Positions 51,363-64,000 of a stretch of DNA of 64,000 bases are shown piece by piece. The notes beneath the pieces were generated by a model that was not told the DNA's origin, made no database searches, and saw only the letters and a list, made by a program, of their open reading frames with translations. How positions within the stretch are numbered: the stretch's first letter is position 1; each line of letters opens with the position of its first letter. The stretch is from Georgenia wutianyii (GTDB taxonomy: Bacteria > Actinomycetota > Actinomycetes > Actinomycetales > Actinomycetaceae), in NCBI RefSeq assembly GCF_006349365.1, contig NZ_CP040899.1, forward strand, positions 1,922,001-1,986,000. Reading direction: 5' to 3'. A program made the translations under genes and the position numbers.

Positions 51363-51410
51363 CCACTACATGTTGTGGTCGGAGCCGCGACACGCCCCTA
51401 CTGATTGTGT
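51363..51410 (+). promoter_or_regulatory. Paired NrdR-box-like operator of nrdDG
   Basis: Box 1 (51363-51378) is CCACTACATGTTGTGG, inside the 20-bp near-perfect palindrome at 51361-51380. It matches the NrdR-box core CWANATNTWG. Box 2 (51395-51410) is CCCCTACTGATTGTGT, sharing 11 of 16 positions with box 1. The boxes are separated by 16 bp, so their centres are 32 bp (three helical turns) apart, as known for NrdR sites. No nrdR gene is in the window. Confidence 0.82.
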
Positions 51411-51473
51411 TTCGAGGTCTCTGCCAGCCCTAGCGTCGTCGGTGCGCACCACTTACCGGACCAGGGAGGACCC

Positions 51474-53333
51474 ATGTCAGAGGCCCGCACACCGCGAGTT
51501 TCCGTCGACCCCGTCACCACCATCGAGGAGTACCTCGACCGAAGCGACTGGCGGGTCAACGCCAACGCGAACCAGGGCTACTCGCTGGGCGGCATGATGC
51601 TCAACACGACCGGCAAGGTCGTGGCCAACTACTGGCTGAGCACCGTGTACGCACCGGAGGCGGGCACCGCCCACCGCGAGGGCGACATCCACATCCACGA
51701 CCTCGACATGTTCGCCGGCTACTGCGCCGGCTGGTCGCTGCGCCGGCTGCTCGAGGAGGGCTTCAACGGGGTGCCCGGGGCGATCAGCGCCGGCCCCGCC
51801 AAGCACTTCTCCTCCGCCGTCGGGCAGATCGTCAACTTCCTCGGCACCCTGCAGAACGAGTGGGCCGGCGCCCAGGCGTTCAGCTCCTTCGACACCTACA
51901 TGGCCCCCTTCGTGCGCCTGGACGAGATGTCCTACCGCGAGGTCAAGCAGTGCATGCAGGAGCTCATCTACAACCTCAACGTCCCCTCCCGCTGGGGTAC
52001 GCAGACCCCGTTCACCAACCTCACCTTCGACTGGACCTGCCCGGAGGACCTGCGCGAGCAGGTGCCGCTCATCGGCGGCGAGCCGTGCGACTTCGCCTAC
52101 GGGGACCTCCAGGCGGAGATGGACATGGTCAACCGCGCGTACATGGAGGTGATGACGGAGGGCGACGCCAACGGACGCGTCTTCACCTTCCCCATCCCCA
52201 CGTACAACATCACCAAGGACTTCGACTGGGAGGCGGAGAACACCGAGCGCCTCTTCGCGATGACGGCGAAGTACGGGCTCCCCTACTTCCAGAACTTCGT
52301 CAACTCCGACCTCGACCCGGGCATGATCCGCTCGATGTGCTGCCGCCTGCAGCTCGACCTGCGCGAGCTCCTCAAGCGCGGCAACGGCCTGTTCGGCTCC
52401 GCGGAGCAGACCGGCTCCCTGGGCGTCGTCACGGTCAACATGGCCCGCCTCGGCTACCTCCACGCGCTCGACGAGGACGGCCTCGTGCGCCGGCTGGACG
52501 AGCTCATGGACATCGCCCGGGACACCCTGGAGCTCAAGCGGGTCGTCATCCAGGAGCACATCGACGGCGGCCTGTTCCCCTTCACCAAGCGCTACCTCGG
52601 CACCCTGGACAACCACTTCTCGACCATCGGCGTCAACGGGATGAACGAGATGGTGCGCAACTTCAGCCTCGGGGAGTACGACATCACCGACCCCCGCGGC
52701 CACGCCCTGTGCGCCCGCATCCTCGACCACGTCCGCGACCGGATGGTGGAGTACCAGGAGGCCACCGGCCACCTGTACAACCTCGAGGCCACCCCCGCCG
52801 AGGGCACGACGTACCGCTTCGCCAAGGAGGACCGCAAGCGGTTCCCCGGCATCATCCAGGCGGGCACCGACACCAACCCGTACTACACGAACTCCTCCCA
52901 GCTCCCCGTCGGCTTCACCGACGACCCGTTCGAGGCCCTGGAGCGCCAGGAGGAGCTGCAGTCGAAGTACACCGGCGGCACGGTGCTCCACCTGTACATG
53001 AACGAGCGAGTCTCCTCCCCCGAGGCGTGCAAGCAGCTCGTGCGGCGCGCGCTGGAGAACTTCCGCCTGCCCTACGTGACGATCACCCCGACCTTCTCCA
53101 TCTGCCCGAACCACGGCTACCTCTCCGGTGAGCACTTCACCTGCCCGCAGTGCGCCGAGGAGCGCTCCGAGGAGGTCGCGTGCGAGGTGTGGACCCGGGT
53201 CATGGGCTACTTCCGGCCGGTGAGCTCGTTCAACATCGGCAAGAAGGGCGAGTACGCCGAGCGGGAGATGTTCACCGAGAGCGCCGCCGCGTCCTCCCCC
53301 ACCGCCGAGCGCCTCGCCGGGCAGCCGGCATGA
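51474..53333 (+). CDS. nrdD: Anaerobic (class III) ribonucleoside-triphosphate reductase
   Basis: A 619-residue glycyl-radical enzyme reducing NTPs to dNTPs without oxygen. The early conserved stretch HREGDIHIHDLDMFAGYCAG and SSRWGTQTPFTNLTFDWTCP are present. A zinc-binding end (SICPNHGYLSGEHFTCPQCA) precedes the radical loop FNIGKKGEYAER with glycine at about 589. The protein starts directly with the catalytic region and lacks the N-terminal ATP-cone of the E. coli enzyme, so allosteric control by dATP may differ. GGGAGGA precedes the ATG. nrdG overlaps its stop by four bases, and NrdR-like boxes lie upstream. Confidence 0.96.
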   Translation: MSEARTPRVSVDPVTTIEEYLDRSDWRVNANANQGYSLGGMMLNTTGKVVANYWLSTVYAPEAGTAHREGDIHIHDLDMFAGYCAGWSLRRLLEEGFNGVPGAISAGPAKHFSSAVGQIVNFLGTLQNEWAGAQAFSSFDTYMAPFVRLDEMSYREVKQCMQELIYNLNVPSRWGTQTPFTNLTFDWTCPEDLREQVPLIGGEPCDFAYGDLQAEMDMVNRAYMEVMTEGDANGRVFTFPIPTYNITKDFDWEAENTERLFAMTAKYGLPYFQNFVNSDLDPGMIRSMCCRLQLDLRELLKRGNGLFGSAEQTGSLGVVTVNMARLGYLHALDEDGLVRRLDELMDIARDTLELKRVVIQEHIDGGLFPFTKRYLGTLDNHFSTIGVNGMNEMVRNFSLGEYDITDPRGHALCARILDHVRDRMVEYQEATGHLYNLEATPAEGTTYRFAKEDRKRFPGIIQAGTDTNPYYTNSSQLPVGFTDDPFEALERQEELQSKYTGGTVLHLYMNERVSSPEACKQLVRRALENFRLPYVTITPTFSICPNHGYLSGEHFTCPQCAEERSEEVACEVWTRVMGYFRPVSSFNIGKKGEYAEREMFTESAAASSPTAERLAGQPA

Positions 53334-54091
53334 CGTCCGTCGCGGCGGCCGCCCCGGCCAGGGCCACCGTCTCGGCCACCGACCTCCAGGTGGCGGGGAT
53401 GACCCCGCTGTCCACGGTCGACTGGCCAGGGCGGCTCGTCGCGACGGTGTTCTGCCAGGGCTGTCCCTGGGACTGCTCCTACTGCCACAACCCGGGCCTC
53501 ATCCCGCCACGTACCCCCGGGCAGCTCGCGTGGGACGACGTCCTCGCCTTCCTCCACCGGCGTCGGCGCCTGCTCGACGGCGTCGTCTTCTCCGGCGGTG
53601 AGGCGACGCGGCAGGCCGCGCTCCTGCCCGCCGTGCGCGCCGTGCGCGAGCTCGGCTTCGCCGTCGGGCTCCACACGGCCGGCCCCTACCCCCGCCGGCT
53701 CGCGGCCGTGCTCGAGGACGTCGACTGGGTCGGCCTGGACGTCAAGGCGCTGCCCGAGGACTACGACGACGTCGTGGGCCGGCCCGGCGCCTCCCACCTC
53801 GCCTGGGACTGCCTCGACGTCCTCGTCGCCTCGGGCGTCGCCCACGAGGTGCGAACGACGATCGCCCCCGGCTCCCCCGCGGCGCGCCACGCCGTCGAGA
53901 TCGCCCGGCGGGTGCGCGACGCGGGGGCGCAGTCCTTCGCCCTCCAGGTCGCCCGCACCACGGGGACCCGCGCGGAGTTCACCGCCTCCCACGACGCCGC
54001 CGACCGCGCCGCCTGGCGCGAGGAGGTCGCCCGGCTCGACGCGCAGATCCGCGCGCTCGGCCTGCCCGACTACACCCTGCGGGAGGCCTGA
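53330..54091 (+). CDS. nrdG: Anaerobic ribonucleotide reductase activating protein (radical SAM)
   Basis: A 253-residue radical SAM activase for NrdD. The cluster motif is FCQGCPWDCSYCHNPGL with cysteines at 45, 49 and 52, followed by VFSGGEATRQAALLPAV. It is longer than the roughly 155-residue E. coli NrdG and closer to the PflA-like long type, with a full partial TIM barrel (VDWVGLDVKALPEDYDDVVG). The ATG overlaps the nrdD stop (ATGA), so translation is coupled. It ends 52 bp before the ether-lipid-type operon, which has its own promoter. Confidence 0.94.
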   Translation: MTSVAAAAPARATVSATDLQVAGMTPLSTVDWPGRLVATVFCQGCPWDCSYCHNPGLIPPRTPGQLAWDDVLAFLHRRRRLLDGVVFSGGEATRQAALLPAVRAVRELGFAVGLHTAGPYPRRLAAVLEDVDWVGLDVKALPEDYDDVVGRPGASHLAWDCLDVLVASGVAHEVRTTIAPGSPAARHAVEIARRVRDAGAQSFALQVARTTGTRAEFTASHDAADRAAWREEVARLDAQIRALGLPDYTLREA

Positions 54092-54143
54092 GCACGGCGC
54101 GGGATGTTCTGGTCGAGGGCGGCCGGCCGCTAGAGTTCGGCAA

Positions 54144-56411
54144 ATGCACTCACCGTTGGAGCACGCGCACGTCCTCGTCACGGGCGCCACCGGCTTCGTC
54201 GGACAGGCCGTCGTCGAGAAGCTCCTGTCCGCCTACCCCACGACGCGGATCAGCATCCTCGTCCGACCCCGCGGGGACCTCACCGCCCAGCGCAGGGCGG
54301 AGAAGCTGCTGCGCAAGCCCGTCTTCCGTGGCTGGCGCGAGTCGGTCGGCGAGGAGAACGCCCTCGCCGCGTTCACCGAGCGGGTCACCGTCATCCCCGG
54401 CGACCTCGAGGACGTCCCCGAGCTGCCCACGGACCTCGACGTCGTCGTCCACTCGGCCTCGAGCGTCTCCTTCGACCTGCCGATCGACGAGGCCTTCACC
54501 GCGAACGTCGCCGGCCCGGTCAACCTCTACGAGCGACTGCTCGCCACCGGGACCGACCCGCACGTCGTCCACGTCTCGACGAGCTACGTCGCCGGGCTGC
54601 GCAAGGGCGTGGCCGAGGAGCGCAGCCTCGGTCACGACGTCGACCACCGCGCCGAGCTGCGGTCCGCGCTCGCCGCGCGGGAGGAGGCCGAGCGCGCCTC
54701 ACGCCGCCCCGAGGTGCTCCAGGAGCTGCTCCGCCAGGCGGAGGTCGACCACCGCCGCGCCGGTCCGCGCGCCGTGGCAGCCGCCGCCGAGGCAGCCCGC
54801 GAGGCGTGGGTGCGCGACGAGCTCGTCTCCCACGCCCGCACCCGGGCACTGTCCCTCGGCTGGCCCGACGTCTACACCTTCACCAAGGCCATGGGCGAGC
54901 GCGTCGCCGAGGAGCTGTGGCAGAGCAACGGCCACCGCCTCTCGGTCGTCCGCCCGACGATCATCGAGTCCTCGCTGCGCCACCCCTTCCCCGGCTGGAT
55001 CGACGGCTTCAAGGTCGCCGACCCGCTCATCGCCGCCTACGGGCGCGGCCTGCTGCCGGAGTTCCCGGCGCTGGCCGACACCGTGCTCGACGTCATCCCC
55101 GTCGACTTCGTCGTCAACGCGATCCTCGCGGCCGCCGCCGTCCCGCCCGCAGCCGGCGAGGCCGCCTACTACCAGGTCTCCTCGGGCATCACGAACCCGC
55201 TGCGCTTCGGCAAGCTCTACGAGTACGTGCGCGAGTACTTCTCCGCCAACCCGATGCGCGACTCCAGCGGCTCGCACGTGTCCGTGCCCGCGTGGTCCTT
55301 CCCCCACCGCGGCGCGGTCGAGCGCGCGCTGCGCCGCCGGGAGCGCGTCGTCGACGTCGCCGACCGCGCGCTCGCGCAGATGCCCGCCCGGCCGGCCACC
55401 CGCAAGTGGATGTCCACGCTCTACAAGGCGCGTCGCGACCTCACGACGCTGCGCAAGTTCACCTCGCTCTACCAGCCGTACACCGAGATCGAGGTCATCT
55501 TCGACGACGCGCGTACCCGCGCGCTGCACGACTCCCTGCCCGCCGAGCGGCGCCTGGAGCACGGCTTCGACACCACCGAGATCGACTGGAAGACCTACCT
55601 CCAGGAGATCCACATCCCCGGCGTGCCCGGGCTCACCCGCGGGGACCGCCCCAAGGAGAAGGCCCCCACGGACGCCGAGCTGCCCCAGCGCAGCGACGTC
55701 GTCGCCGTCTTCGACCTGCAGCGCACGGTCATCGCCGCGACGCTCGTCGAGCAGTACCTGTGGGTCGAGCTCGCCACCCGCCCGCCCTCGCGCTGGCCGC
55801 GGGCGCTGGGCAACCTCGTGGCCCTCGGGCCGCGCTACCTCCAGGCCGAGCAGCGCGACCGCGGCGACTTCATCCGCACGTTCATGCGTCGCTACGCCGG
55901 CACGCACGAGGCGGAGCTGCGCGCGGCGATCGCCGACCGCGTCCAGGAGTCGCTGCGCCGGGACGTCCTGCACGAGGCCGTCGCCCAGATCCGACGCCAC
56001 CGCGCCGCCGGGCACCGCACGGTCCTCGTCACCGGCGAGATCGACGTCTTCGTCGAGCCGCTCGCCTCGCTCTTCGACGTCGTCGTCGCCGGGAAGATGG
56101 AGAAGGACGACGACGGCCGCTGGACCGGCCACCTCGCCACCTCCCCGCTCGTCGGGGAGTCGCGCGCGACCTGGCTGACCCGCTACGCGCGCGACGAGGG
56201 CATCGACCTCACCGGGTCCTACGCCTACGGCGACAGCTACGCCGACCGGCCGTGGCTCGAGGTCGTCGGCAACCCGAGCGTCGTCAACCCCGACGCGCAG
56301 CTCTACCGGTACGCTCGCGCTCAGCGCTGGCCCGTGCACTCGTGGACGACGACCGTCGAGGGCCGGGTGACACCCGTCCTGCGTAGTCTGAAGGAGGCGG
56401 TGCGCCGATGA
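54144..56411 (+). CDS. Fatty acyl-CoA reductase (FAR-type SDR) fused to a HAD-IB domain
   Basis: A 755-residue fusion. The N-terminal extended SDR (about 1-400) has the NADP motif VTGATGFVGQAVVEKLL, the catalytic YTFTK (Y244, K248), and the FAR hallmark VVRPTIIESSLRHPFPGWID, so it should reduce acyl-CoA to a fatty aldehyde or alcohol. Residues about 515-730 are a phosphoserine-phosphatase-like HAD domain with VTGEID and YGDSYADRPWLEV. Motif I reads DLQRT (D524-T528), so the usual second Asp is Gln. TAGAGT at 54131-54136 lies seven bases before the ATG (leaderless). Its stop overlaps the next start, heading a coupled four-gene operon. Confidence 0.87.
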   Translation: MHSPLEHAHVLVTGATGFVGQAVVEKLLSAYPTTRISILVRPRGDLTAQRRAEKLLRKPVFRGWRESVGEENALAAFTERVTVIPGDLEDVPELPTDLDVVVHSASSVSFDLPIDEAFTANVAGPVNLYERLLATGTDPHVVHVSTSYVAGLRKGVAEERSLGHDVDHRAELRSALAAREEAERASRRPEVLQELLRQAEVDHRRAGPRAVAAAAEAAREAWVRDELVSHARTRALSLGWPDVYTFTKAMGERVAEELWQSNGHRLSVVRPTIIESSLRHPFPGWIDGFKVADPLIAAYGRGLLPEFPALADTVLDVIPVDFVVNAILAAAAVPPAAGEAAYYQVSSGITNPLRFGKLYEYVREYFSANPMRDSSGSHVSVPAWSFPHRGAVERALRRRERVVDVADRALAQMPARPATRKWMSTLYKARRDLTTLRKFTSLYQPYTEIEVIFDDARTRALHDSLPAERRLEHGFDTTEIDWKTYLQEIHIPGVPGLTRGDRPKEKAPTDAELPQRSDVVAVFDLQRTVIAATLVEQYLWVELATRPPSRWPRALGNLVALGPRYLQAEQRDRGDFIRTFMRRYAGTHEAELRAAIADRVQESLRRDVLHEAVAQIRRHRAAGHRTVLVTGEIDVFVEPLASLFDVVVAGKMEKDDDGRWTGHLATSPLVGESRATWLTRYARDEGIDLTGSYAYGDSYADRPWLEVVGNPSVVNPDAQLYRYARAQRWPVHSWTTTVEGRVTPVLRSLKEAVRR

Positions 56412-57223
56412 GCACCACCCGCCGGTCCCTGTCAGCTCCCGAGCCCTCGGTCCTGCGCGGCCGCGCGCTCGTCACCGGGGGCACCTCCGGCCTCGGGCTC
56501 GAGTTCGCCCGGGCGCTGGCCGCTCGCGGCCTCGCGGTCGTCCTCGTCGCACGTGACGAGCAGCGGCTCGAGAAGACGGCCGAGCAGCTGCGCTGGCGCT
56601 ACGGTGTCGAGGTGGAGACGCTGGCGGCCGACCTCTCCGCGCGCGACGACGTCGACGCCGTCGCCGCGCGGCTCGAGGACGCCGACTCCCCCGTCGACGT
56701 CCTCGTCAACAACGCCGGCCACGGCGTCCACACCCCGTTGCTCTCCGCCGACCTCACCGAGCTCGACCGCTCCCTGGAGGTCATGGTCCGCTCGGTCATG
56801 GTCCTCGGCGGCGCGGCCGGGCGGGCGATGGTCGCCCGCGGGCACGGCGCCATCATCAACGTCGCCTCGGTCGCCGGGCTCGTCCCCATGGGGGCCTACT
56901 CGGCGATCAAGTCGTGGGTGGAGACCTACTCGGAGTCCCTGTCGCTCGAGCTCGCCGGGACCGGCGTCCAGGCGACGGCGCTCCTGCCGGGCTGGGTGCG
57001 CACCGAGTTCCATGAGCGGGCCCGGATCCGCACGAGTGCCATCCCCGACGCCCTGTGGCTCGAGGCCGACCGGGTCGTCGCCGACGCCCTCGCCGACGTC
57101 GAGCGCGGCAAGGTCAAGACCATCCCCTCCCGACGCTTCCGCGCGATCGCCTTCCTCGCGCGCCACGCCCCGCGCCCGCTCATCCGGCGGGCCACCGCAG
57201 TGATCAGAGGAGGACGCTCGTGA
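56408..57223 (+). CDS. Short-chain dehydrogenase/reductase, candidate alkyl/acyl-DHAP reductase
   Basis: A 271-residue classical SDR. It has the cofactor motif VTGGTSGLGLEFARAL with a downstream RDEQRLEK arginine favouring NADP(H), the NNAGHGVHTPLL segment, a serine in NVASVAGLVPMG, and the catalytic YSAIK (Y164, K168). A C-terminal basic extension could be membrane-associated. The ATG overlaps the stop of the FAR-HAD gene, and GTG of the PlsC gene overlaps its own stop. In the operon context it is the natural candidate for reducing 1-alkyl-DHAP to 1-alkyl-glycerol-3-phosphate. That role is inferred. Confidence 0.85.
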   Translation: MSTTRRSLSAPEPSVLRGRALVTGGTSGLGLEFARALAARGLAVVLVARDEQRLEKTAEQLRWRYGVEVETLAADLSARDDVDAVAARLEDADSPVDVLVNNAGHGVHTPLLSADLTELDRSLEVMVRSVMVLGGAAGRAMVARGHGAIINVASVAGLVPMGAYSAIKSWVETYSESLSLELAGTGVQATALLPGWVRTEFHERARIRTSAIPDALWLEADRVVADALADVERGKVKTIPSRRFRAIAFLARHAPRPLIRRATAVIRGGRS

Positions 57224-57972
57224 GCGAGGACGCCACAGCCGAACACCCCCCGCGCCTGCGCCGCTACCACGCCCGCTGGCACCGCGGCCTGCGGTTCGTC
57301 GCGCAGCGCATGCTCCTGCGCCCCGTCGTCTCGGCGGTGACGACGACGACCGTCGAGGGCACCGACAACGTCGACGGCCTCAAGGGTCCGTTCATCCTCG
57401 TCGCCAACCACTGCAGCCACCTGGACACCGGCGTCCTCATCTCCCAGCTGCCCTACCGACTGACCAAGCGCCTCACCGTGGGCGCGGCGGCGGACTACTT
57501 CTACGCGCGCTGGTGGGTCAAGGCGATGACCTCGCTCTTCTTCAACACCTACCCGATCGAACGCACCGGGGGCACCGGCAAGGCGAAGGGCATGTCCCAG
57601 CGGCTGCTCAAGAGCGGCCTGCCGATCCTCCTGTTCCCCGAGGGCACCCGCTCCCGCGACGGCGTCATGCGCCGGTTCAAGCCGGGCGCGGCTGCCCTGA
57701 GCACGAGCACCGGGGTCCCGTGCCTGCCGGTCGCGCTCATCGGCACGCACGAGGCGATGCCCGTCGGCCGTTTCTGGCCGGTGCCGGGCCGCCCGCGCGT
57801 GCGCATCCTCGTCGGGCGCCCGATGCGCCCGCAGGCCGGGGAGTCGGTGCGCGAGTTCAGCGACCGGCTCGCCCAGCGGATCAGCACCATGCAGACCATG
57901 CAGACGCCGTACGTCGTCGGCGATGCGAGACGGGACGGCCACGGTCGCCGGTCCCAGGAGGAGGCTTCGTGA
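57220..57972 (+). CDS. PlsC-family acyltransferase
   Basis: A 250-residue membrane-associated acyltransferase. The catalytic HX4D block is NHCSHLDTGVLI, the acceptor-phosphate binding block is LFPEGTRSRDG, and a third conserved block is LPVALIGTHEAMPVG. Standard members acylate 1-acyl-glycerol-3-phosphate. In this operon acylation of DHAP or of alkyl-G3P is equally possible. AGAGGAGG precedes the GTG, which overlaps the SDR stop. A second PlsC is at the right edge of the window (63203), so this copy is probably pathway-specific. Confidence 0.9.
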   Translation: MSEDATAEHPPRLRRYHARWHRGLRFVAQRMLLRPVVSAVTTTTVEGTDNVDGLKGPFILVANHCSHLDTGVLISQLPYRLTKRLTVGAAADYFYARWWVKAMTSLFFNTYPIERTGGTGKAKGMSQRLLKSGLPILLFPEGTRSRDGVMRRFKPGAAALSTSTGVPCLPVALIGTHEAMPVGRFWPVPGRPRVRILVGRPMRPQAGESVREFSDRLAQRISTMQTMQTPYVVGDARRDGHGRRSQEEAS

Positions 57973-59657
57973 CGGGTGTGACGCACCAGAAGTGGTGGGG
58001 CTGGGGAGTCGAGGGAGTCGCGTTCGACCACAGCAACAAGCCGAAGATGGCGCCCTTCGTCCTCGACAGGATCGGCATCGACCTGTCCGCGCCCGGCACC
58101 CCGCCCCCGAGCTTCGAGGACCTCACCGTCCCCGCGCCGCGGCTGCCCGAGGAGCTCGCCGGTGAGCTGCGCGGTGCGCTCGGCGAGGACCACGTCGTCA
58201 CCGAGGACTTCGACCGCGTCGTCCACACGTACGGCAAGGGCCTGGTCGACCTCGTGAAGATCCGCGCGGGCCACCTCCCGCGCGTGCCCGACGTCGTCGT
58301 CTACCCGGGCAGCGAGGACGAGGTGCGCGCCGTCGTCGACGCCGTCGTCGCCGCGGACGCCGTGCTCATCCCCTTCGGCGGCGGGTCGAACATCACCGGC
58401 TCGCTCACCCCGTCAGCGGACGAGACCCGGCCGATCGTCTCCCTCGACCTCGGCCGCCTCAACCGCGTGCTCGAGGTCGACGAGGACGCCGGCCTGGCCC
58501 GGATCGAGGCCGGCGGCCTCGGACCGGACCTCGAGGAGCAGCTCAACGCGCGCGGCTGGACGATGGGCCACCAGCCCGACTCCTTCAAGCACTCGACGCT
58601 CGGCGGCTGGATCGCCACTCGCTCCTCGGGCATGCAGTCCGACAAGTACGGGGACATCGCCGACATCACGCGCGGCCTGCGCGTGGTCCTGCCCGGCAAG
58701 GTCGTGGTCCTGCGTCCGCTGCCCAGCACCTCCTCCGGGCCGAGCGTGCGCGAGATGATCATCGGCTCCGAGGGTCGTCTCGGGGTCATCACCGAGGCGT
58801 GGGTCCAGGTCCACCGTCTGCCGGAGAACCGCGAGATCATCGCCTACCTCTTCCCGAACTGGGGCAGTGCCATCCAGGCGATGCACGCGATCTCCGTGTC
58901 CGACGCCCAGCCCTCGGTCACCCGCGTCTCCGACGGCAACGAGACCGCCTTCTCCTTCTCCACCCAGAAGGCCTCGACCGGCACCAAGAAGATCGTCCAG
59001 GACGGGCTGTTCGGCTTCCTCGAGAAGCGCGGCTGGGACATGGACAAGGTCTGCCTCAGCTACGTCGGCTACGAGGGCGGCGCTGCCCGGGTGAAGGCGG
59101 ACAAGGCCGTCGTCGGCAGGATCGTGCGCGAGCACGGTGGGATCAAGCTCGGCAAGGGCCCCGGCGCGCTGTACGACCAGAAGAAGTTCGACACGCCCTA
59201 CATCCGTGACTTCCTGCTCGACATCGGCGCCCTCGCCGACGTCTCCGAGACCGCCATGCCGTGGTCGCGGATCATGGAGGTCTACCACCACACGACCCGC
59301 GCCGCCCGGGACGCGTTCGACTCCCTCGGCGTCCGCGGGTACATCATGTGCCACCTGTCGCACAGCTACCACGCGGGTGCGTGCCTGTACTTCACGTTCG
59401 CCCTCGTCGCGAGCAGCTCTGACATGGACGAGCAGCTGCGCCAGTACTGGACGGTGAAGAAGGCGATCCAGCAGTCGTTCGTCGACCACGGCGGGACGAT
59501 CTCCCACCACCACGGGGTGGGCACCGACCACGCGCACTGGCTGGAGGAGGACATCTCCCCCGCGGGCGTCGACCTCCAGGTCGCGCTCTTCCAGGGCACC
59601 GACCCGGGCCGCAACCTCAACCCCGGCACGATCCTGCCCGCCCACCGCGAGTGGTGA
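57969..59657 (+). CDS. agpS: Alkyl-dihydroxyacetonephosphate synthase-like FAD enzyme
   Basis: A 562-residue FAD-linked oxidase-family protein closely resembling human AGPS throughout. It has the N-terminal WWGWGVEG signature, the PCMH FAD-binding IPFGGGSNITGSLTP, QPDSFKHSTLGGWIATRSSG, IGSEGRLGVITEAW, the FAD C-terminal domain with ETAMPWSRIMEVYHHTTRAA, AGACLYFTF, and the active-site histidine triplet SHHHGVG (H513-H515). AGPS swaps the acyl chain of acyl-DHAP for a fatty alcohol, forming the ether bond. M. tuberculosis Rv3107c is a related actinobacterial protein. GTG overlaps the PlsC stop. The gene ends 10 bp before a strong palindromic hairpin. Confidence 0.9.
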   Translation: MTGVTHQKWWGWGVEGVAFDHSNKPKMAPFVLDRIGIDLSAPGTPPPSFEDLTVPAPRLPEELAGELRGALGEDHVVTEDFDRVVHTYGKGLVDLVKIRAGHLPRVPDVVVYPGSEDEVRAVVDAVVAADAVLIPFGGGSNITGSLTPSADETRPIVSLDLGRLNRVLEVDEDAGLARIEAGGLGPDLEEQLNARGWTMGHQPDSFKHSTLGGWIATRSSGMQSDKYGDIADITRGLRVVLPGKVVVLRPLPSTSSGPSVREMIIGSEGRLGVITEAWVQVHRLPENREIIAYLFPNWGSAIQAMHAISVSDAQPSVTRVSDGNETAFSFSTQKASTGTKKIVQDGLFGFLEKRGWDMDKVCLSYVGYEGGAARVKADKAVVGRIVREHGGIKLGKGPGALYDQKKFDTPYIRDFLLDIGALADVSETAMPWSRIMEVYHHTTRAARDAFDSLGVRGYIMCHLSHSYHAGACLYFTFALVASSSDMDEQLRQYWTVKKAIQQSFVDHGGTISHHHGVGTDHAHWLEEDISPAGVDLQVALFQGTDPGRNLNPGTILPAHREW

Positions 59658-59667
59658 GCTAGCCCCC

Positions 59668-59744
59668 GACCCACCCCTTCATCCCCGAGCGCTGGATCCT
59701 GCACGCGACGTGCACGATCCAGCGCTCGGCGGAAGGGGTGGGTC
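59668..59744. repeat. Dispersed long palindrome, copy B (77-bp hairpin)
   Basis: The core arms (59685-59704 and 59710-59729) repeat the CCGAGCGCTGGATCCTGCAC sequence of copy A at 6407-6459 with the same single mismatch. Here an outer pair GACCCACCCCTTC (59668-59680) with its exact complement (59732-59744) extends the stem. The element lies between the converging agpS-like and molybdopterin genes. A bidirectional terminator or REP-like role is likely. Confidence 0.82.
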
Positions 59745-59772
59745 GCACGCGGGACGCCGCTGCGTGCGCGGG

Positions 59773-63202: not shown

Positions 63203-64000
63203 CTACCCGGCGGACGACGGCGGCTGGTCGCCGATGGGGCCGTGGTCCTCGCCCTCGTCCGCCTCCTGCGCCGCGGCCTCGAGCAGCTCCTTGCCGTGCA
63301 CGAGCTCCTGCTCGGTGGGCTCGGGGACCCCGGTCGCGGGGACCCGCCGCCCGCCCGGTGCCGCCGGGCCGCCGCTCGGCCGCCCGGCCGCAGCCTTGGC
63401 CTTGGCCTTGACCGTCGCCGCGTACTGGTCGACGTACTCCTGGCCGGAGAGCCGCATGATCTCGTACATGATCTCGTCGGTCACCGAGCGCAGGACGAAC
63501 CGGTCGTCCTCGAGCCCTGCGTAGCGGCTGAAGTCGAGCGGCTCACCGATGACGACGCCGATCGGGCGCAGTCGCGGGATGCGGGTGCCGATGGGCTGGG
63601 CGATGTTCGTGCCGATCATCGCCACCGGGATCACCGGCGCCCCGGACTGCAGTGCGAGACGTGCCACACCGGTCTTGCCGCGGTAGAGCCGCCCGTCGGG
63701 GCTGCGGGTGCCCTCGGGGTAGATGCCGAACAGCTCCCCTTCCTGCAGCCTGCGCAGGCCGGTGTTGAGCGCCGCCTCGCTCGCCTTGCCGCCGCTGCGG
63801 TCCACCGGGATGGTGCCGACCCCGCGCATGAACCCGGCGACGAGCTTGCCCTTGACGCCGCTGCCGGTGAAGTAGTCCTGCTTGCCGAGGAAGACGACCG
63901 ACCTGCGCAGCATGAGCGGCAGGAAGAAGGAGTCGATGACGGCGAGGTGATTGCTCGCGAGGATCGCGGCGCCATGGTCGGGCACGTGCTCGGCGCCTCT
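63203..64000 (-). CDS. plsC: 1-acyl-sn-glycerol-3-phosphate acyltransferase family protein (N-terminus beyond window)
   Basis: The frame continues past the right edge, and 265 residues are visible. Catalytic HX4D is SNHLAVIDSFFLPL and the phosphate-binding block is IYPEGTRSPDGRLYRG, followed by PVIPVAMIGTN. A Lys/Ala/Pro-rich acidic tail of about 70 residues, longer than usual, ends the protein. It should acylate lysophosphatidate at the membrane for phospholipid synthesis. The ATG at 63985 is internal, since homology to the family continues upstream of it (EHVPDHG). Confidence 0.88.
   Translation of the reverse strand, partial: RGAEHVPDHGAAILASNHLAVIDSFFLPLMLRRSVVFLGKQDYFTGSGVKGKLVAGFMRGVGTIPVDRSGGKASEAALNTGLRRLQEGELFGIYPEGTRSPDGRLYRGKTGVARLALQSGAPVIPVAMIGTNIAQPIGTRIPRLRPIGVVIGEPLDFSRYAGLEDDRFVLRSVTDEIMYEIMRLSGQEYVDQYAATVKAKAKAAAGRPSGGPAAPGGRRVPATGVPEPTEQELVHGKELLEAAAQEADEGEDHGPIGDQPPSSAG

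Follow-up and report, generated by a model that had tools for sequence, protein, structure and literature searches.

The eukaryotic peroxisomal pathway of ether-lipid synthesis comprises FAR1, GNPAT, AGPS and PexRAP. Among aerobic bacteria, animal-type ether lipids and plasmalogens have been described mainly for myxobacteria (PMC9131029), and in Myxococcus xanthus disruption of the AGPS gene was reported to cause only a slight drop in ether lipids, which are made mainly through ElbD (PMC9131029). The anaerobic PlsA/PlsR route, which also yields bacterial ether lipids, has been reported in some Actinobacteria orders (PMC9702350), and AGPS homologues have been reported in metagenome-assembled genomes (MAGs) of Actinobacteria (PMC11868695). 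In a 64,000-nucleotide stretch of the Georgenia wutianyii chromosome (contig NZ_CP040899.1, positions 1,922,001 to 1,986,000; hereafter the window, to which all unprefixed coordinates refer), an operon encodes a fatty acyl-CoA reductase (FAR), a short-chain dehydrogenase/reductase (SDR), a PlsC-type acyltransferase and an AGPS-like flavoenzyme. Judged from sequence, this operon appears to be an alkyl-dihydroxyacetone phosphate (alkyl-DHAP) pathway that would produce the glycerol-ether backbone of ether lipids, with a probability of about 0.83. The earlier ether-lipid interpretation of the locus is thus largely supported. The features of the locus are as follows.

54144..56411, + strand: FAR-HAD, fatty acyl-CoA reductase with a HAD-IB-like domain (domain models; PDB 7eoz, E 8e-54; conserved residues)
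55704-56300, + strand: HAD domain of FAR (nucleophile kept, DxD and motif III altered)
56408..57223, + strand: SDR, proposed 1-alkyl-DHAP (or acyl-DHAP) reductase (domain models; S154/Y164/K168 present)
57220..57972, + strand: acyltransferase of the PlsC type, proposed to act on DHAP (motifs HX4D and FPEGTR; natural PlsC-AGPS fusions)
57969..59657, + strand: AGPS, FAD-dependent alkyl-DHAP synthase performing the ester-to-ether exchange, as predicted (2uuu, E 3e-108; 4bby, E 2e-81)
54107..54136, + strand: promoter-like core TTCTGG-18 nt-TAGAGT, separated from the FAR start codon by 7 nt (sequence; congener alignment)
59667..59745, no strand assigned: two nested inverted repeats (arms of 21 nt and 14 nt), lying where AGPS and a molybdopterin-domain gene converge

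The four open reading frames are complete, lie on the + strand in the order FAR, SDR, PlsC, AGPS, and had their translations checked. They are joined by four-base stop-start overlaps (ATGA at 56408-56411, GTGA at 57220-57223 and GTGA at 57969-57972), and the translational coupling proposed by the first-pass annotation can therefore be read directly from the sequence. The same annotation had named the right families, though not in their actual order, and the HAD domain fused to FAR had been overlooked. That domain, the promoter-like core before FAR and the nested inverted repeats after AGPS are additions to the earlier description. In the proposed pathway, FAR would reduce a fatty acyl-CoA to a fatty alcohol, while PlsC would acylate dihydroxyacetone phosphate. 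AGPS, acting on its FAD, would then exchange the acyl group for the alcohol to give 1-alkyl-DHAP, the ketone of which would be reduced by the SDR to 1-alkyl-glycerol-3-phosphate. Acylation at sn-2 and the head-group steps, encoded elsewhere, would lead to alkyl-acyl phospholipids. In this scheme, the flux direction, the final product and the substrates of both PlsC and the SDR are inferred.

The assignment of AGPS is strong, and this protein is the best-supported member of the operon. It consists of FAD_binding_4 and FAD-oxidase_C domains, and its closest solved proteins are AGPS of Dictyostelium (2uuu, 366 bits, E 3e-108) and of guinea pig (4bby, 278 bits, E 2e-81), as against 76 bits for the best chain that is not an AGPS; D-lactate and glycolate oxidases all score 76 bits or less. 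Residues R319, R413, Y474 and H513-H515 align with R419, R515, Y578 and H615-H617 of the guinea-pig enzyme, which we take to be its catalytic residues, and are invariant in all 81 actinobacterial AGPS sequences compared, including that of the window. The AGPS-like identity given in the first-pass annotation is strongly supported by both the structural scores and the invariant residues, and exchange activity is predicted. The nearest named relatives of the protein are Georgenia and Oceanitalea proteins of 88-89% identity.

The clustering of the four genes in relatives, on which the first-pass annotation had let its interpretation depend, proved to be widespread among the named actinobacterial loci compared, which are the best 80 of at least 406 and some of which end at contig ends. 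PlsC lies on the same strand within 2 kb upstream of AGPS in 78/80 loci; no more than about 310 bases separate the two genes in 77 of these 78, and 1014 bases do so in the remaining one (L084). Both PlsC and the SDR accompany AGPS in 71/80 loci, and FAR is found in the flanks of 53/80 (25 co-oriented upstream, 27 divergent and one downstream). By layout, FAR-SDR-PlsC-AGPS stands on one strand in 24 of the 80 loci, FAR is divergent in 27, SDR-PlsC-AGPS occurs without a flanking FAR in 20, and nine fall outside these classes. The link between PlsC and AGPS is the strongest in the operon. Natural fusions of the two occur in two database proteins (P0080 and P0095), which could in principle be frameshift artefacts. 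Genera carrying the cluster include Georgenia, Jiangella, Ruania, Occultella, Subtercola, Herbiconiux, Frigoribacterium, Microlunatus and Streptomyces.

Association of FAR with AGPS was also observed in a class sample of 246 genomes, in which one genus (g76, 12 genomes) dominates and for which the genome and genus lists were compiled by hand. At a match threshold of E 1e-60, an AGPS-like gene was detected in 120 genomes, comprising 31 with a close AGPS (54-100% identity) and 89 with a distant one only (about 30-40%). FAR was present in 60 of the 246 genomes. It accompanied a close AGPS in 29 of the 31 genomes that have one, compared with 31 of the 215 that do not (Fisher p 9e-19, ancestry ignored); counted by genus, the figures are 9/9 and 16/95 (Fisher p 7e-7, ancestry likewise ignored). 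As read from coordinates, FAR and AGPS lie within about 6 kb of each other in 21 of the 29 genomes with both. The single neighbourhood of a distant AGPS-like gene that was examined (L135:6757-9399) places it next to a YegS/diacylglycerol-kinase-like lipid kinase; because of this neighbour and the retained triple histidine, the distant gene may be an AGPS as well. Close AGPS clusters of 70-71% identity, above many other families listed, were also observed in a Mycobacterium MAG and in Mycobacterium simulans (L059, L060), possibly as a result of horizontal transfer.

The remaining three proteins retain the catalytic motifs of their families. FAR matches the domain models NAD_binding_4 (5e-48) and HAD (3e-31), with a Sterile score just below the cut-off (35.1 against 35.4 bits), and its residues 9-494 align with the solved fatty acyl-CoA reductase 7eoz (E 8e-54). 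The YxxxK motif is present, and T13, G14, Y244 and K248 are kept in 54/54 sequences. PlsC belongs to the Acyltransferase family PF01553, with H64 and D69 of the HX4D motif in 79/79 sequences, while the SDR is an adh_short protein, with the catalytic S, Y and K in 74/74.

HAD phosphatases carry a DxD motif I and a lysine in motif III. The HAD-IB-like domain fused to the C-terminus of FAR (residues 521-719) keeps the nucleophile D524 and both aspartates of GD(S/T/A)xxD in all 54 sequences. The second aspartate of its motif I is replaced throughout (by Glu in 29, Gln in 17 and His in 8), and residues 671-676 contain no motif III lysine in any sequence; depending on the alignment, an invariant arginine, R674, stands at or one residue from its place. 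A free HAD paralogue from the same genome (L023) carries the usual FDIDNT and lysine, while the motif pattern search of a second free paralogue (L022) matched nothing. Since the second aspartate of motif I and the motif III lysine have been lost, the conserved domain is probably not an ordinary phosphatase.

Several observations weigh against the alkyl-DHAP pathway. FAR was not found in the fetched flanks of 27/80 loci, 19 of which belong to Propionibacteriaceae according to record titles and genus placement, and it occurs in the 31 class-sample genomes without a close AGPS mentioned above. Three genomes (G126, G199 and G027) possess FAR, a neighbouring PlsC and the diiron gene discussed below, with no AGPS at E 1e-60, which indicates that FAR is not exclusive to the alkyl-DHAP route. 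PlsC resembles 1-acyl-glycerol-3-phosphate acyltransferases (PDB 5kym; TIGR00530, 63 bits, below the cut-off of 103), and the nearest NCBIfam model of the SDR is mycolate reductase (169 bits, below the cut-off of 380). The comparisons of PlsC, which covered no GNPAT sequence, listed PlsC-type matches only. In favour of the pathway, Subtercola vilae DB165 (L087), for which dimethyl acetals (DMAs) have been published (PMC5945732), carries the cluster.

The fatty alcohols could instead enter wax esters or another lipid, with the AGPS-like protein acting as a 2-hydroxy-acid oxidase. FAR-type enzymes of other bacteria are used for wax esters (PMC11948995), GlcD-type oxidases are built of the same FAD_binding_4 and FAD-oxidase_C domains, and GlcD is the best NCBIfam match of AGPS (122 bits, cut-off 568). 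However, AGPS leads in the PDB scores by some 200 to 290 bits, on which ground a plain hydroxy-acid oxidase was set aside, the AGPS residues are invariant and PlsC is nearly always the neighbour of the gene, all of which makes this explanation highly improbable. A variant compatible with the alkyl-DHAP pathway concerns the division of labour within it: PlsC would acylate alkyl-glycerol-3-phosphate at sn-2, the SDR would aid FAR as a fatty-aldehyde reductase, and a general acyltransferase would supply acyl-DHAP. Its appeal lies in PlsC being closest to sn-2 type enzymes and in the operon SDR being matched equally well by SDRs of many substrates; nevertheless, it is PlsC, and not FAR or the SDR, that constantly adjoins AGPS or is fused to it, the alignment of FAR with a solved FAR is full-length, and three further PlsC-like matches in the genome could perform the sn-2 step. 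We regard the variant as possible, albeit the less likely arrangement. A DHAP-acylating PlsC and an alkyl- or acyl-DHAP-reducing SDR are the substrate roles that we infer. A second PlsC-like gene lies within the window (63203-63985, - strand, 33% identity to the operon PlsC) and is possibly an sn-2 acyltransferase.

The alkyl-DHAP pathway, as proposed, ends at alkyl ethers, and its extension to plasmalogens would depend on further enzymes. In 33 loci of relatives, paired genes resembling acyl-ACP desaturases lie near FAR (e.g. L054:4291-5151, L092:4470-5423 and L072:7503-8375). One member of each pair has an intact diiron site (33/33), with the ligands E, ExxH, E, ExxH and a fold matching the soluble acyl-ACP desaturase, while the site is intact in none of the 33 partner proteins. 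In Subtercola species with published DMAs, both members of the pair accompany the cluster. The diiron pair is a candidate vinyl-ether former, although it could as well desaturate acyl chains. It is possible, though less likely than not, that these genes constitute an aerobic actinobacterial plasmalogen route, in which the AGPS operon would make the alkyl ether and the soluble diiron heteropair would take the place of the membrane enzyme CarF/PEDS1 in forming the vinyl ether; strains without the pair would stop at alkyl ethers.

Published fatty-acid analyses bear on such a route. For S. vilae DB165, the iso-16:0 DMA was reported at 17% along with other DMAs, which also occur in S. boreus, S. 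frigoramans and S. lobariae (PMC5945732). In Kineococcus rubinsiae an anteiso-15:0 DMA was confirmed by GC-MS, the peak having been read as 2-hydroxy-14:0 by the MIDI system; its authors found a DMA surprising at first sight, as DMAs are usual in anaerobes, took it as a sign of plasmalogens and listed S. boreus and S. frigoramans among DMA-containing aerobes (PMC7472656). A later MIDI study of the same S. vilae type strain, under the designation DSM 105013, gave 15.6% 2-OH-14:0 (PMC9287328). Where the MIDI system lists 2-hydroxy-14:0 for other actinobacteria, the peak may likewise be an anteiso-15:0 DMA that was misread. A DMA or aldehyde peak was likewise reported in one Frigoribacterium strain and in F. 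faeni (PMC12823222).

Other data count against assigning vinyl-ether formation to the diiron pair. Two other Frigoribacterium species lacked the acetal peak (PMC12823222), and for Agreia, which has the diiron gene, a single paper gives 'ND' in a table and up to 4% iso-15:0 DMA in its text (PMC5945732). A term search of the main text of a Herbiconiux paper found no DMAs named. The diiron gene had no match in two Pseudokineococcus genomes (L103 and L106), which is relevant given the DMA of K. rubinsiae, presumably a relative of Pseudokineococcus. Among the 33 diiron genomes of the class sample, five lack FAR and 13 lack a close AGPS, eight of these 13 having a more distant AGPS-like gene and five none at E 1e-60. 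The main text of the S. vilae genome paper, searched by term, makes no mention of acetals, plasmalogens, ethers or desaturases (PMC6518244). Open-licence literature, covered by partly broad searches, yielded no description of an actinobacterial FAR-SDR-PlsC-AGPS operon or of a diiron plasmalogen enzyme, which is a weak negative.

The diiron family was searched for and found to be absent from the genome of the window's strain, for which alkyl ethers and no finished plasmalogens are therefore predicted. Three congeners (G002, G003 and G004, the genomes of L058, L040 and L041) do carry the diiron pair, and DMAs are predicted for them. PF10520 (PEDS1/CarF) had no match in this genome or in the 246 class-sample genomes; since no positive control was detected, this is no proof of absence. 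PF09989, which we take to belong to PlsA in the anaerobic route to plasmalogens, was absent from the window's genome in a search that detected 4/14 controls. It was detected in one of 16 genomes, Propionicicella, and with the same control rate was not found in three Subtercola, one Agreia, one Frigoribacterium, one Pseudokineococcus and four congener genomes or in four other Propionibacteriaceae genomes or MAGs. Full plasmalogen synthesis in this strain, through an unrecognised desaturase encoded elsewhere in its genome, would agree with the DMAs of cluster-bearing relatives, yet none of the three families was matched (PF10520 with the limit just given), and we consider it unlikely. The first-pass annotation had spoken of alkyl ether lipids or plasmalogen precursors, of which precursors remain a fair description, while finished plasmalogens are not predicted because both the diiron candidate and PF09989 are missing.

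At the boundaries of the operon, 52 bases separate FAR from nrdG, which ends at 54091. The TTCTGG/TAGAGT core and its spacing are conserved in an alignment of the window with four loci of congeners (L039, L040, L041 and L058), in which much of the flanking sequence varies. The position of this conserved core just before the FAR start suggests that the operon is transcribed from its own promoter as a leaderless mRNA. The inverted repeats at 59667-59745 likely mark its end. Directly upstream of FAR lie the nrdD-nrdG genes of a class III (anaerobic) ribonucleotide reductase (51405-54091); among the loci compared, nrdD precedes the operon only in those of the genus Georgenia, and these genes were therefore not taken to be part of the ether-lipid system. 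Elsewhere, LarA-like genes (lactate racemase N-terminal, PF09861) stand beside FAR and PlsC (L129:9903-11966, L130:1129-2787, L134:11723-13738 and L071:3454-5019), and in L129 and L130 a gene of the NAD_synthase family, perhaps LarE-like, lies on the other side of FAR. The genomes of L129, L130 and L134 have no AGPS match at E 1e-60.

The animal vinyl-ether-forming enzyme was found only in 2019. A conserved operon spread across many actinobacterial families would explain the reports of DMAs in aerobic actinobacteria (Subtercola, Frigoribacterium and perhaps Kineococcus), and the operon together with the diiron pair provides named candidate genes by which the question of aerobic actinobacterial plasmalogens becomes testable. 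Should the proposal hold, the diiron pair would represent a second oxygen-dependent solution to vinyl-ether formation, soluble instead of membrane-bound.

Compared with the eukaryotic peroxisomal pathway, the operon is proposed to carry out the same four chemical steps, its AGPS is homologous to the animal and Dictyostelium enzymes and its FAR to a solved FAR. It differs in that its acyltransferase is PlsC-like, its reductase is a generic SDR, its FAR bears a HAD domain and no CarF/PEDS1 was found with it in the search without a positive control. The anaerobic PlsA/PlsR route acts on finished diacyl lipids, unlike the route proposed for the operon, and its marker PF09989 is, as stated, not in the genome. 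The myxococcal elb cluster (ElbA-ElbE) likewise combines FAR and acyltransferase domains, in ElbD, with a HAD-type protein, ElbB (PMC9131029); however, the four window proteins contain no acyl-CoA synthetase or ACP domain, and ether formation would instead rest on AGPS. The Georgenia operon is not unprecedented, as that of M. xanthus, MXAN_1676-1674, is similar: according to its published description, AGPS, FAR and acyltransferase functions and an NAD-dependent enzyme are likewise encoded in one operon, although its FAR and GNPAT are fused and its third gene is of the epimerase/dehydratase kind (PMC9131029).

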